Shown in pieces: positions 4,082 through 9,406 of a stretch of DNA of 11,929 nucleotides. Numbering within the stretch: the stretch's first letter is position 1; the number at the start of each line of letters is the position of its first letter. Location of the stretch: contig JALOPK010000072.1 in assembly GCA_025453925.1 (NCBI GenBank), forward strand, positions 1 to 11,929, in the 5' to 3' direction. This DNA comes from Candidatus Eiseniibacteriota bacterium. GTDB lineage: Bacteria > JAFGKV01. Below the pieces are notes generated by a model. The model had not been told where the DNA came from and ran no database searches. It worked only from the letters and a program-made list of their open reading frames with translations. The translations under genes and the position numbers were made by a program.

Positions 4082-6196
4082 CTACTCGAGTATCACGAAC
4101 TCCACACGCCTGTTCAACGCTTTGCCTTCGGGCGTGTCATTGCTGGCAATGGGGACCGACTCTCCGAACCCCCGCGCGTCCACGCGCAGCGGATCGATGT
4201 TGAACCTTCGGAGTAGGTAGGTGCGCACCGATTCGGCGCGACGCTGACTCAGGTTCACGTTGTAGGAATCGGACCCGTCGGCATCCGTGTGGCCCTCGAT
4301 CCGCACTTTCATCTCGGGAACGTCCGCCAACAACTGGCCAGCCGTATCGAGTACCGGCAGTGATTCGGGCAACAGCTCGGCGCTATTGTAGGCGAAATTC
4401 ACTCCTTCCAGACGGGTACGTTCGGGGCAACCCCACTTGTTCACCTTGATGCCGGGTGTCGTCCCGGGGCACTTGTCCAGTCCATCGAACACGCCGTCAC
4501 CGTCGGAATCCAGCGGGCATCCATTGCGATCAACCGTGGCGCCGTAGGGTGTCCCGGGGCAACGGTCAGTGCCATCGGGCACACCGTCGAGATCCTCGTC
4601 CACGGGGCAGCCAAGACTATCGACGACCGCGCGAACCGGCGTGTCCGGACACTTGTCCAACCCGTCGAAGACGCCATCGCCGTCAGAATCGGTCGGGCAG
4701 CCATTGGCATCGACCCTGGCGCCGTATCGTGTGTCGGGGCAGCGATCCACGCCGTCGGGCACGCCGTCGGAATCCTGGTCGATGGGGCATCCTCGCTCAT
4801 CCACCACCGTGTTCGGGCGGGTGCCGGGGCATTTGTCGAGGCCATCGGCAACGCCGTCTCCATCGGAGTCCAGCGGGCACCCGGCCCGGTCCACGGGCAC
4901 CTGCGGCGGCGTGTCGGGGCAGCGATCCACGCCGTCGGGTACCCCGTCGCCGTCGCTGTCCTCTGAGCATCCGGCTTCGTCCACTCGAGCGCCTCGCGGC
5001 GTGTCGGGGCACCGATCCACGCCATCGGGTACCCCGTCACCGTCGCTATCCTGGGTGCAGCCCGTCCGATCGACCACCGCCCCGGCGGGCGTGTCGGGGC
5101 ACTTGTCGAGGCCATCGGGCACGCCGTCACTGTCACCGTCCGACGGGCATCCCCACACGTCGACGGCCGCGCCGCGGGGCGTACCCGGGCACCTGTCCAG
5201 GCCGTCGTAGACACCATCAAAATCAGAGTCGGTCGGGCATCCGTTGGCGTCGACCATTGCCCCTGCGGGCGTGCTCGGGCACACATCAGCATCATCCGAG
5301 ACCCCGTCGCCATCACGGTCTCGCTTCGCCATCAGCGATGGAGCACCGAGCGACACCACCAGTTCCCAATCCGGCGCCTTGTAGCGCGCATCGTCGTCGT
5401 TGAGGCCGATGCGCACGCCGATGTCCAGGTAAGATTCACCTTGACCTCCGAAGCGAGCGCCGGGCGTCAGCCGGATGGGAGAATCCGAGAAGTCCAACCC
5501 CTCTTGCTGATACCACTGATCGGTGGAGACCTCCACGAAGAACGACATGGCCGGTGTCGGCAGCTCGATGGCGGCGGAGATCCGCATGAGGTCGTTCTCG
5601 GCGTCCGGGTGGACGTCCTCGTACTGCTCGACTCCGACATTCCCGTGGATCCGGAAGGGTGCCGTTCCGGGGATATCGGCGAGGTCGAGAGTGAGAAGGC
5701 CCATGCCTCCCCTGACGGGATCTCCCGCACTGAACCCCTTGTCCTCATCTCCCGTGGCGATGCGGTAGAAACCCATGCCGCCGATCCGGACGGCCTGATT
5801 GGGGCCGAAGGGAATGGTGAGTTTGCCGCGGATCTCCACGTCACCGAACCCGCTCTCGAAATCCTTGGCGTCCGTGCTGGCATCGTCGCGGCCCGAGAGG
5901 TAGGTCATATGATATGGTGCGTAGCCGCCCAACTCCAGATAGTTGGCCAGTGCATACGTCACGCTGAGCCTGGCCTGGCCGATGTGATACCGTTCCTCTC
6001 CGCTCATGAGCGTGAGCTTCTCGGACCGGTATAGACCGTGAAAACCCAGGGTCAACGTGCCCGTGCCGTCATTCCCGGCATCGAGGGTTTCGATCAGACC
6101 CCTCAGTCCCCCGGGAGTCACGCCGGCGGACGACCGCCCGGCAAGAATGCCGAGGAGAAGGAACACGCCACACAGAGAAAATGCGGTCCAACGCAT
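4082..6196 (-). CDS. OmpA-family outer-membrane protein with ten TSP3 repeats
   Basis: This 704-residue protein probably links the outer membrane to peptidoglycan. Residues 1-24 (MRWTAFSLCG...RSSA) form a signal peptide with likely cleavage after SSA; no lipobox Cys is placed for a lipoprotein. Residues about 25-285 alternate polar and hydrophobic strands (for example GFGDVEIRGKLTIPFG) like a beta-barrel. Residues 293-592 are ten 30-residue thrombospondin-type-3 repeats rich in Asp, each with two Cys, expected to bind calcium. Residues 593-704 are an OmpA C-terminal domain with RIEGHTDADGSDSYN, LSQRRAESV and NRRVEF, the diaminopimelate-contacting region. The ATG at 6196 is chosen for its GGAGGTG upstream and because it opens the signal peptide; ATGs at 6208 and 6229 are weaker. 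The stop is TAG at the natural domain end. It is like OprF/OmpA proteins with calcium-binding linkers. Confidence 0.92.
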   Translation of the reverse strand: MRWTAFSLCGVFLLLGILAGRSSAGVTPGGLRGLIETLDAGNDGTGTLTLGFHGLYRSEKLTLMSGEERYHIGQARLSVTYALANYLELGGYAPYHMTYLSGRDDASTDAKDFESGFGDVEIRGKLTIPFGPNQAVRIGGMGFYRIATGDEDKGFSAGDPVRGGMGLLTLDLADIPGTAPFRIHGNVGVEQYEDVHPDAENDLMRISAAIELPTPAMSFFVEVSTDQWYQQEGLDFSDSPIRLTPGARFGGQGESYLDIGVRIGLNDDDARYKAPDWELVVSLGAPSLMAKRDRDGDGVSDDADVCPSTPAGAMVDANGCPTDSDFDGVYDGLDRCPGTPRGAAVDVWGCPSDGDSDGVPDGLDKCPDTPAGAVVDRTGCTQDSDGDGVPDGVDRCPDTPRGARVDEAGCSEDSDGDGVPDGVDRCPDTPPQVPVDRAGCPLDSDGDGVADGLDKCPGTRPNTVVDERGCPIDQDSDGVPDGVDRCPDTRYGARVDANGCPTDSDGDGVFDGLDKCPDTPVRAVVDSLGCPVDEDLDGVPDGTDRCPGTPYGATVDRNGCPLDSDGDGVFDGLDKCPGTTPGIKVNKWGCPERTRLEGVNFAYNSAELLPESLPVLDTAGQLLADVPEMKVRIEGHTDADGSDSYNVNLSQRRAESVRTYLLRRFNIDPLRVDARGFGESVPIASNDTPEGKALNRRVEFVILE
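4421..5320 (-). repeat. Ten tandem 90-bp TSP3 repeats
   Basis: Ten units of exactly 30 codons with no indels follow the pattern DxDxDGVxDGxDxCPxTxxxxxVDxxGCPx. From unit 5 on, the motif alternates DRCP (5, 7, 9) and DKCP (6, 8, 10). DRCP units 7 and 9 open with a variable DQD/DED, and DKCP units with DSDGDGV, which gives a 180-bp higher-order period. Unit 1 is the most divergent (DDADVCP) and unit 10 ends KVNKWGCPE. Confidence 0.95.
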
Positions 6197-6239
6197 GCGC
6201 ACCTCCATCAGAGAGTTGGCGATAGTCACCTAGTGAACC

Positions 6240-6268
6240 TATGTAGAAGGGTTGGCCCCGTGCGTCAA
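6240..6268 (-). promoter_or_regulatory. Candidate sigma-70-type promoter for the ompA-like gene
   Basis: On the minus strand TTGACG (6268-6263, five of six to TTGACA) and TACATA (6245-6240, a poor -10) are separated by 17 nt. A start near 6233 would leave a leader of about 35-40 nt before the ATG. The -35 box overlaps the last codons and stop of the upstream methionine gene. The weak -10 keeps this tentative. Confidence 0.3.
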
Positions 6269-6273
6269 CCCTT
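6247..6273 (-). terminator. Hairpin over the stop codon of the methionine gene
   Basis: On the minus strand AAGGGTTG (6273-6266) pairs with CAACCCTT (6254-6247) around an 11-nt loop, followed by CTACAT. The TGA at 6267-6265 lies in the end of the first arm and the loop. It is a terminator candidate with only a poor T-run. Confidence 0.4.
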
Positions 6274-6492
6274 GTCGCATGAGACAGGAAAACCGAGCAC
6301 GCCCAGAGCGAGATCAATCCTGCCGAAGGGGGCGGCGACCTGCACTCCCCGGATGAACGGTCTGATGCGCGCGAGGACCTCACGAGCGATGGCGACACCC
6401 TCTTCCGCCGCCACGCCTCGGGCCTCGGCGGCGGCCATGCGTGCCATGACCGAGGGAGGAACCTTGGCGCCGGGGACCTCGTTGTTCATGAA
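6265..6492 (-). pseudogene. C-terminal remainder of the methyltransferase/MTHFR gene beyond an in-frame TAG
   Basis: These 75 codons plus TGA continue the upstream frame directly after the TAG at 6493-6495, beginning FMNNEVPGAKVPPSV and ending APFGRIDLALGVLGF...CDKG. This is the expected C-terminal end of the MTHFR barrel in bifunctional YitJ-type enzymes, which have RNAEF...NEVPG at this place. An ATG at 6489 could allow restart 4 nt after the stop and yield 74 residues, but no Shine-Dalgarno precedes it. Alone it could not form a domain. Most likely it is part of one 619-codon gene interrupted by a point change. Confidence 0.75.
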
Positions 6493-6495
6493 CTA
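6493..6495 (-). other. In-frame amber codon (TAG where GAG is expected)
   Basis: Codon 544, counting from the ATG at 8124, is TAG. The codons before it read LRNA and those after it read FMNNEVPG, with no frame change. Family members have Glu here (RNAEF), which GAG would give, so one base (position 6495, A instead of C on the plus strand) accounts for the stop. Confidence 0.85.
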
Positions 6496-8124
6496 GGCGT
6501 TTCGAAGGGAAACCAGAGGCCAGATTCCGGCGACGAGGTCGACGCCGAAGCCGCCGATGCGGCGCACGAAATCCTCCAGGATGTCGGGATCATAGATCGG
6601 CTGTGTCACGGCGAACTCGGCCCCTGCCTCGGCCTTATAGGCGAATCGCCGGAGCTCGTACTCCATGTTCACCGCGCCGGGATTCACCCCGACTCCAATG
6701 TGGAAGCCGGTCGGATCTCCGATGGAGTTGCCCCCGAGGTCCAGCCCCTGATTGAGGTGTTTTACCATGTTGGTCAGCCCGATGGAATCGACGTCGAAGA
6801 CCGCTGTGGCGTCGGGATAGTCGCCCAGCTTGGGGGGATCGCCGGTCACCACTAGGAGATTGCGGAGGCCCAGCGCATAGGCGCCGATGAGATCCGACTG
6901 CATTCCCACCAGGTTTCGGTCGCGGCAGGCGTAGTGCAGAACGGTCTCCATGCCGACGGTGGTTTCGAGCAATACGGCGAGAGCCAAGGGAGCCATGCGC
7001 GCCGATGCGCGCGGCCCGTCGGGTATGTTGACGGCATCGACGCCCGCCTCCCGAAGCATCCCGGCACGGGCGATGAGCTTGGACAGCGCGTGGCCCCGGG
7101 GCGGCACGAGCTCAACGCAGGTGACGAAATCGCCCTTGACGAGCTTCGCCGCCAAGGGGCTTTTGCGCGCGCGCGGCACCTCGGCCGCTGCTGCGCTCTC
7201 CGCCTCGCGGGCCGTCTGGAGAAACGAGACATTGGTCACGTTGCGGGGTCTCAGCGCGCGGACGGCATTTGCGATTGCGCGAATGTGGGCGGGAGTGGTC
7301 CCACAACATCCGCCGACAATGCGGGCGCCGGCGAGAATGAAGCGGCGGGCATACTCGGCCATGTACTCCGGCGAGGCAAGATAGATGTTGCGGCCCTCCA
7401 CATTGCGCGGGATGCCGGCATTGGGCTGCAATGAAAGCGTGCGGCTCGTCGCTTTCACCATGCGCTCCAGCGTCTGCAGCATGACGTGAGGGCCTACCGA
7501 GCAGTTGATGCCGATGACGTCCGCTCCCCACGCGTCGAGTCGCTGGGTGAAGACCTCCGGAGTCGTACCATAGAGACTGGTGCAATCCTCCTGCACCGTC
7601 ATCTGCGAGATCACGGGAAGGGCGCAGACATCCCGAACGGCCTGGAGGGCCTGATGAATCTCATTCAAGTCGCTGAATGTCTCCAGCACGAACAGGTCGA
7701 CTCCTCCCGCCAGCAGCGCTTCCGCCTGTTCCCTGAACGCCGAGCGCGCTTCGTCCACGCTGGTGGGGCCCCATGGCTCGATCTTGAGTCCCAGCGGCCC
7801 TATGGCTCCCGCAACCAGCGCCGTGCGGCCGTTCTCCTGGCAGGCCAGCTCCGCGGCCCTGCGGTTGATGGACGCCACCTTGTCGGACAGTTCGTGTCTC
7901 GCCAACTTGTAGCGGTTCGCTCCAAATGTGTTCGTCTCGATGATCTGCGCTCCCGCGCGTACGTACTGCGCGTGGATCTCGCATACGAGCGCCGGGTTCG
8001 ACAGACTGAGTTCGTCGTAGCAGTGATTGAGGGGTACGCCCTTTGCGTACAGCATAGTGCCCATGGCACCATCAAACACCACGACTTGATCATCATCCAG
8101 AAGCTGCATGAGTGGAGACTGCAT
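6493..8124 (-). CDS. Bifunctional homocysteine S-methyltransferase / methylenetetrahydrofolate reductase, interrupted
   Basis: This is a cytosolic one-carbon/methionine enzyme like Bacillus YitJ: an N-terminal zinc-dependent homocysteine methyltransferase (about 1-290) joined to a C-terminal MetF-type FAD-dependent methylenetetrahydrofolate reductase (about 320 to the end). The zinc ligands are C208 (GINCSVGP) and C273-C274 (GGCCGTTP); FDGAMGTML (17-25) and ETNTFGAN (63-70) are methyltransferase motifs. In the reductase, VELVPPRG (E338 at the catalytic Glu position), VTGDPPK (426-432) and TQPIYDP (507-513) are seen. The start ATG 8124 has AGAGGAG five nt upstream; an ATG at 8244 adds a sequence unlike the family. 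The frame stops at TAG after 543 codons (WPLVSLRNA), but homology goes on in the same frame to 6265; the whole would be 619 codons, the usual length. The truncated product lacks the last strand and helix of the reductase barrel, so reductase activity is doubtful while the methyltransferase half is complete. Confidence 0.9.
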   Translation of the reverse strand: MQSPLMQLLDDDQVVVFDGAMGTMLYAKGVPLNHCYDELSLSNPALVCEIHAQYVRAGAQIIETNTFGANRYKLARHELSDKVASINRRAAELACQENGRTALVAGAIGPLGLKIEPWGPTSVDEARSAFREQAEALLAGGVDLFVLETFSDLNEIHQALQAVRDVCALPVISQMTVQEDCTSLYGTTPEVFTQRLDAWGADVIGINCSVGPHVMLQTLERMVKATSRTLSLQPNAGIPRNVEGRNIYLASPEYMAEYARRFILAGARIVGGCCGTTPAHIRAIANAVRALRPRNVTNVSFLQTAREAESAAAAEVPRARKSPLAAKLVKGDFVTCVELVPPRGHALSKLIARAGMLREAGVDAVNIPDGPRASARMAPLALAVLLETTVGMETVLHYACRDRNLVGMQSDLIGAYALGLRNLLVVTGDPPKLGDYPDATAVFDVDSIGLTNMVKHLNQGLDLGGNSIGDPTGFHIGVGVNPGAVNMEYELRRFAYKAEAGAEFAVTQPIYDPDILEDFVRRIGGFGVDLVAGIWPLVSLRNA

Positions 8125-9406
8125 GAGGGCTCCTCTGATCGAGCTGACCAGCACTGAACATGCCCCGGGTGACGCATCCGCGTCAAGTGGCGAGGGTTCC
8201 ACGTTCGTGATGGACCTCGCGCTGGGGGGATACGGGGTTGCCAAAGCGGCGGGGAAGGTGATGTTTCTTCCTCTGACGGCGCCGGGTGACCTGGTCGCCT
8301 ACCGGGTCGAACGCGACCACTCGCGCTACGCATTCGGCTCGGTGGTCGAGGTGCTGCGCCCCGGGGAGAGCCGTGTCCAACCCTTCTGCCCTGTGTTCGG
8401 CGTGTGTGGCGGGTGCCAGCTTCAGCATGTCGCCTACGAGGTGCAGCTTGCTGCAAAGCGCGCCTGGGTGCATGACGCCCTTCGTCGGATAGCGGGCGTG
8501 GAGGTTGAGGTCTCGCCGCCCGTTGCCAGCCCCCTGCTGCAAGGCTATCGCAACAAGGCGGTCCTCCATGTACACGCGGGGGGGGCAGGGTTCCTTCGTT
8601 CGCAGTCGCACCGGATCGTGGAAGTTGAATCGTGCCCGGTGCTGGTGCCTTCCCTCAGGGATGCCCACCGGATGGTGGGGGAGTGGGCGAGGACTCTGCC
8701 CGCAGATGCGGCGTTCCGGGTGTTGCTGCGATCGGGCAGCGATGGAGGAGTCATGGCCGTGGTGCACCATCGAACGTCGCCGGAGTCCCTGCAGCGTCTG
8801 GCGGCGGCGCTGCCTGAGGCGCAGGTGGCCCGTGGGGGATCGCGCGCCACGGTGACTTTCATCTGCGGCGGTATCCACTTCGACGCGGAGGCCGAGTCGT
8901 TCTTCCAGGTGAACACGAGCCAGCATGAAAGCATGGTGGAGACGATCGGAGGGATGTTGAGCGGGGGCGTGTTGGTTGACGCGCACGCGGGTGTCGGCTG
9001 GCCCTCGCTGTGTCTGGCATCCAGGTTTCGGGAAATCGCCTGCGTGGAGATCGCTCGCCGGTCATGTGACCTGGGCGAAGCGAACGCCCTTCGGGCAGGG
9101 CTGAACCGCGTCAGGTTCATCAGGGGCTCTCTTGCGTCGGCCCACAGGCAGGGGGCACTGCCCGAGCGACCGGATGCCATGGTGGTCGACCCCCCCCGGG
9201 CGGGAATCCTGCCGCACGATCTGGCGGCGCTTAAGGAAATCCGTGCCCCGACGGTGGTGTATGTATCCTGCAATCCTGCCACCCTGGCCCGCGACCTGAA
9301 GCATCTGGGGTTGGCAGGGTATGTCCCGCGGCGAGTGATTCCATTTGACCTCTTCCCCCACACTGCCCACGTTGAGTGCATTGTCCTGCTCAACCTGCGG
9401 AGGTAG
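8123..9406 (+). CDS. rlmD: RlmD-type 23S rRNA uracil-C5 methyltransferase (TrmA/RumA family)
   Basis: It transfers a methyl group from SAM to C5 of a uracil in RNA, in this family usually 23S rRNA. Numbered from the ATG at 8108, a TRAM RNA-binding domain (about 28-85, GGYGVAKAAGKVMFLP) is followed by the [4Fe-4S] cysteines C94, C100, C103 (CPVFGVCGGC) and C176 (ESCPVL). Then come FFQVN (265-269), the SAM-binding DAHAGVGW (291-298), DPPRAG (361-366), the catalytic C388 in VSCNPATLARDL, and the base E423 in PHTAHVE. The start is uncertain: ATG 8123 has GGAG five nt upstream and is preferred; ATG 8108 has less support; GTG 8207 and ATG 8210 would avoid the divergent promoter region but cut the first TRAM strand. 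It lies 5 bp upstream of radC, with radC's binding site inside its last codons. RlmD rather than TrmA is favoured by the TRAM domain and the iron-sulfur cysteines; the exact target uracil is not shown. Confidence 0.9.
   Translation: MRAPLIELTSTEHAPGDASASSGEGSTFVMDLALGGYGVAKAAGKVMFLPLTAPGDLVAYRVERDHSRYAFGSVVEVLRPGESRVQPFCPVFGVCGGCQLQHVAYEVQLAAKRAWVHDALRRIAGVEVEVSPPVASPLLQGYRNKAVLHVHAGGAGFLRSQSHRIVEVESCPVLVPSLRDAHRMVGEWARTLPADAAFRVLLRSGSDGGVMAVVHHRTSPESLQRLAAALPEAQVARGGSRATVTFICGGIHFDAEAESFFQVNTSQHESMVETIGGMLSGGVLVDAHAGVGWPSLCLASRFREIACVEIARRSCDLGEANALRAGLNRVRFIRGSLASAHRQGALPERPDAMVVDPPRAGILPHDLAALKEIRAPTVVYVSCNPATLARDLKHLGLAGYVPRRVIPFDLFPHTAHVECIVLLNLRR
8130..8136 (-). promoter_or_regulatory. 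Ribosome binding site of the methyltransferase/MTHFR gene
   Basis: Minus-strand AGAGGAG is followed by CCCTC and ATG. The 5-nt spacing makes the ATG at 8124 the preferred start over the ATG at 8244. Confidence 0.65.
8157..8186 (-). promoter_or_regulatory. Candidate promoter for the methyltransferase/MTHFR gene
   Basis: Minus-strand TTGACG (8186-8181) and CATGTT (8162-8157) are 18 nt apart, about 33 nt upstream of the ATG at 8124. The -10 is weak. The site lies within the first codons of the divergent methyltransferase gene if that begins at 8123, which is an argument for a later start there. No riboswitch-like fold was recognised in this short leader. Confidence 0.25.
9399..9404 (+). promoter_or_regulatory. 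Ribosome binding site of radC inside the rlmD 3' end
   Basis: GGAGGT overlaps the last codons and the TAG of the methyltransferase gene and is 7 nt from the ATG at 9412. It favours that start over the in-frame ATG at 9376 and suggests translational coupling. Confidence 0.7.

Follow-up and report, generated by a model that had tools for sequence, protein, structure and literature searches.

A lone in-frame TAG in the only MTHFR gene found in a draft Eiseniibacteriota genome is probably a single-base error or minority variant

Introduction

In the window, an 11,929-nucleotide stretch of DNA from a draft genome of a Candidatus Eiseniibacteriota bacterium, the frame of a bifunctional homocysteine S-methyltransferase/MTHFR (HMT/MTHFR) halts at a TAG and then continues, unshifted, to a TGA. 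Is this TAG a stop that the living cell obeys, a codon that it reads through, or a wrong base in the assembly? The original prediction, made from the letters of the window, offered three options: a very recent event, a sequence error or a site of readthrough. The first two fit what we report below, and readthrough found no support.

Results

The HMT/MTHFR frame is interrupted once and continues as family sequence

Read from the TTG at 8244, the truncated product is 583 amino acids long and ends ...IWPLVSLRNA, directly before the TAG (6495..6493, minus strand) that interrupts the frame at codon 584. Past the TAG the same frame resumes with FMNNEVPG... and runs for 75 family-like codons to the TGA (6267..6265; Table 1). 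The truncated frame matches NF006396 (PRK08645) with an E-value of 7.3e-197 and 655.2 bits (cut-off 453), covering profile positions 6-532 of 611, and a PF02219 match to the frame reads through one TAG. The window gene thus shares domain order, length and sequence with the NF006396 enzymes, but differs from them in that the TAG breaks its frame.

Table 1. Positions in the window of the interrupted HMT/MTHFR frame and its parts
Feature	Position	Strand	Basis or remark
HMT/MTHFR frame, open part (bifunctional homocysteine S-methyltransferase/MTHFR)	6496..8244	-	583 codons from the listed TTG
In-frame TAG	6493..6495	-	The same-genus gene has GAG, and almost every relative has Glu
MTHFR C-terminus past the TAG, 75 codons (helices, barrel strand 8, last helix)	6268..6492	-	Homology to relatives
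Natural TGA stop of the full-length HMT/MTHFR frame	6265..6267	-	Direct reading
In-frame ATG one codon past the TAG, possible reinitiation start	6487..6489	-	Direct reading

The listed starts of HMT/MTHFR (8244, minus strand) and rlmD (8108, plus strand) overlap head to head at 8107-8210 of the window. The true starts of both genes probably lie further inside, with a short divergent promoter region between them, and HMT/MTHFR probably begins at an ATG near 8124 or 8109 rather than at the listed TTG. At 4082-6229 on the minus strand the window also holds an OmpA-like gene that is strongly repetitive in DNA and encodes many calcium-binding repeats of a thrombospondin-type-3-like kind (DSDGDGV...).

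Relatives carry a sense codon at the site

Every one of the 105 relatives read across this position encodes a residue there. A script tally of the 97 that lie on the forward strand of their loci gave Glu in 91, Gln in five and Asp in one. The corresponding gene of a same-genus genome (L147 in G001, hereafter the sister) is 80% identical and has GAG, and a same-family genome (G002) has GAA; a single G-to-T change converts the GAG of the sister to TAG. L147 aligns across the site ungapped and in frame, which rules out a frameshift in place of a nonsense codon. The tail past the site is 67 to 108 codons long in the tallied relatives other than two, L060, which runs off the end of its contig, and L044, whose frame is broken by a separate lone stop. 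None of the 105 relatives read ends naturally at LRNA, which rules out a natural gene end at this point and, because such homologues were what the original prediction had named as its refutation, confirms the interruption. The prediction was also right that the frame halts after LRNA and then runs on unshifted for 75 codons of family sequence, and that GAG would restore a conserved Glu. Beyond the two genomes, relatives of the genome studied here (G000) are listed merely as 'same domain', and the lineage appears to be thinly sampled in the searched set.

Constraint past the stop is not relaxed

Comparison of G000 with the sister gave a pN/pS of 0.22 for the codons past the stop, 0.12 for the MTHFR part preceding it and 0.19 for the methyltransferase part. 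Equal-sized segments along the gene gave values of 0.05-0.43, a range that holds the post-stop value, and the protein encoded past the stop is 80% identical to that of the sister. Because constraint after the stop is not relaxed, the change is recent or non-biological, and an old pseudogene is ruled out; synonymous sites between the two genomes are near saturation, which limits the power of the comparison for events far more recent than the genome split. With the frame open past the stop and no decay in pN/pS, the earlier observation that no other damage to the gene is visible holds. The lack of decay and the single G-to-T step from the sister both argue for an error. A one-base difference in an otherwise undamaged gene also speaks for a true, very recent nonsense mutation, since a newly broken gene would look identical, and the unrelaxed codons count against such a mutation merely by limiting its age.

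A single MTHFR gene was found in each of three genomes

The assembly of G000 (3.9 Mb in 502 contigs) is 82% complete, and in the whole of it this gene is the sole match to PF02219. G001 (94% complete) and G002 (98%) each have one MTHFR, the corresponding gene, without the stop. No second MTHFR that would make this copy dispensable was found in G000, G001 or G002. Lasting loss would be costly because each of the three genomes has only this MTHFR, a point in favour of an error. Against a true mutation, methionine synthesis from folate would fail with the sole MTHFR broken, yet the assembly lacks about 18% of the genome. The search for a separate metF or metH proposed in the original prediction had a divided outcome, since no other MTHFR was found in G000 but a MetH-like gene is present. 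This gene and another methyltransferase-like gene, on contigs C394 and C447, are other candidates for the methyltransferase step, which favours a true mutation.

TAG is an ordinary stop in this genome

We surveyed the terminators of 318 genes in approximately 520 kb of sampled contigs of G000. TGA ends 187 of these genes, TAG 104 and TAA 27, and in the window EF-G, the OmpA-like gene and rlmD all end in TAG, as first noted. RF1 is present and intact (481.7 bits against a cut-off of 423.25), as is RF2. A CUA anticodon is absent from all 39 tRNA hits in this 82%-complete genome (ARAGORN typed 38 of them, and C324, which lies at a contig end, was read by eye), and the best PylS hit reached 21.5 bits, below the cut-off of 178.15, so the suggested check for an amber-suppressor tRNA or PylS came back negative. 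TAG reassignment would be marked by a TAG that is rare or absent as a terminator and by loss of RF1, neither of which was seen here. The 104 TAG ends in 318 genes, RF1, the absence of a CUA tRNA among the hits and the low PylS score together lead us to reject a recoded TAG, a pyrrolysine system or an amber suppressor, and considerably strengthen the earlier argument against genome-wide recoding.

Predicted folding of the RNA downstream of the stop is no stronger than that of shuffled sequences (z -0.12), which argues against a readthrough signal of this kind, and the stop is not conserved as programmed readthrough would have it, since members of the same genus and family have sense codons. It is true that the frame is open and constrained past the stop and that the gene is probably important, as would be expected if the full protein were made through a suppressor tRNA, recoding or a programmed signal. 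However, with intact RF1 and RF2, TAG at the end of so many genes, no CUA anticodon among the tRNA hits, PylS under its cut-off, an unremarkable RNA fold, a stop that is unconserved even within the genus and a second interrupted gene that uses TGA (see below), we regard readthrough as very unlikely.

Termination would remove the end of the MTHFR barrel

We modelled the read-through domain with AlphaFold2, reading the TAG as Glu and using a 53-sequence alignment. The model has a mean pLDDT of 92.3 and forms a complete 8-strand MTHFR barrel, which superimposes on Thermus MTHFR (1v93) over 272 residues with a Z of 30.5 and an rmsd of 2.6. The likeness to the MTHFR catalytic barrel (MetF; PDB 1v93/3apt from Thermus, 1b5t from E. 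coli) thus lies in the predicted fold of this domain; unlike the 1v93-type barrel, to which it is 22% identical, the window gene is fused behind a methyltransferase and, as sequenced, lacks strand 8. In the model the site is domain residue 220, in the helix (216-225) that follows strand 7. Termination would take away most of this helix and all that follows: helices 233-245 and 248-266, strand 269-273 (strand 8) and helix 279-286. As sequenced, the C-terminal barrel ends after strand 7, and it is whole only with a residue in place of the TAG. The original prediction was correct in seeing the end of the reductase lost, but 'last barrel strand and helix' was too little, as everything after strand 7 goes.

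In the human MTHFR structure, Leu323 is among the residues likely to touch both NAD(P)H and CH3-THF (PMC5995969). Our profile alignment ends one residue short of human Leu323, and we infer that its equivalent falls in the lost part. Because strand 8, the last helices and the Leu323 region would be removed, the truncated protein would be expected to lose reductase activity.

The TAG is followed directly by TTC ATG, placing a start codon three bases past the stop. This arrangement could allow termination at the TAG and reinitiation one codon later, with the 583- and 74-residue parts forming a split MTHFR barrel. However, the Met is common in the family and thus inherited rather than newly gained, a Shine-Dalgarno-like sequence is absent before the ATG on direct reading, and no relative is split at the site. 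We therefore give reinitiation very little weight.

Lone nonsense codons occur at a low background

A first survey, of arbitrary contigs of G000 against the sister, covered 27 shared genes, in which the HMT/MTHFR TAG was the only internal stop. Because of this small yield, we added a scan of the 318 sampled genes for coding sequence continuing past the stop. The dozen top candidates were by eye mostly neighbouring genes sharing a frame, such as pairs that resemble tpiA-secG and ffh-rpsP, and one, L227, was confirmed against the sister. L227 (2651-4147, plus strand, contig C240) is a repeat-rich, propeller-like ORF with a lone in-frame TGA at codon 308. The sister has a Gly codon (GGT) and no stop at this site, aligns across it at 61% identity, and the frame resumes past the TGA.

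A third case came from the relatives. In L044, from a MAG of the Acidobacteria gp4 AA26 lineage (QHXG01000145.1, 4592-4594, plus strand), HMT/MTHFR is interrupted by a lone TAA that lies 17 codons past the site in the window, at a codon that is Glu in relatives, and the frame is intact beyond it. The two cases are alike in having a single in-frame stop in the same C-terminal region of HMT/MTHFR with family sequence continuing past it, but the L044 stop is TAA, lies at another codon and belongs to an unrelated lineage, so it is not shared by descent. Because L227 has TGA and L044 has TAA, lone nonsense codons form a low background that is not specific to amber, and the TAG emphasised in the original prediction looks like background noise.

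No two of the three lone stops are of one kind, and a single coding-strand G-to-T change could account for each: GAG to TAG, GAA to TAA and, assuming that the ancestral Gly codon of L227 was GGA, GGA to TGA. This common direction in three cases is only suggestive. Stops make up approximately 4% of single-base changes in sense codons (23 of 549 in the code table). With two lone nonsense codons seen in G000, this rate would translate, as a rough estimate from two events, into some 50 stray bases in roughly half a megabase, or about one per 10 kb. A further hint of imperfect assembly is a single frame on contig C297 (L161, 104-1243, minus strand) in which a TonB-dependent-receptor-like N-terminus is followed by the C-terminal portion of ArfB, a ribosome-rescue factor; this frame is probably a chimeric join. 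A known source of G-to-T sequencing artefacts is oxidised guanine (PMC12390751), and a tie to the lone stops described here is possible.

Discussion

The TAG in this HMT/MTHFR gene is probably either a G-to-T error at one base of the consensus or a minority variant, in a draft that is fragmented and 82% complete. The living population would then most likely carry a sense codon at the site, and the gene would be an ordinary, otherwise intact HMT/MTHFR in which one codon reads TAG in place of Glu, the wrong base having come from a consensus error or from a minority variant picked by the assembler. Besides the evidence given above, the state of the assembly points this way, with its 502 contigs, the lone TGA of L227 and the chimeric-looking frame on C297, as does the lone TAA of L044 in another draft. 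Against an error, just two lone nonsense codons were noticed in the approximately 318 sampled genes, a count too low for a grossly error-rich assembly.

A true, very recent nonsense mutation is distinctly possible, though we do not consider it probable. The 583-residue protein would then keep its methyltransferase intact but have a broken reductase, and either methionine or 5-methyl-THF would be needed from outside or the lineage would be in the course of being lost. Least likely of all, in our judgement, is a TAG that is real and fixed and coexists with a working enzyme, either as a split barrel made by TAG-TTC-ATG reinitiation or through readthrough that works efficiently with no dedicated suppressor.

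For draft metagenome assemblies this case is mostly a warning: a conserved gene with a lone in-frame stop gives weak evidence of recoding or gene loss, and most of the question can be answered by quickly surveying terminators, RF1, tRNAs and further lone nonsense codons. The TAG does stand in the deposited sequence, and if it is real, it would be a nonsense mutation of an ordinary kind within a known family; the organism would then be unable to form 5-methyl-THF through the one MTHFR known in it and would rely on an outside supply of methionine.
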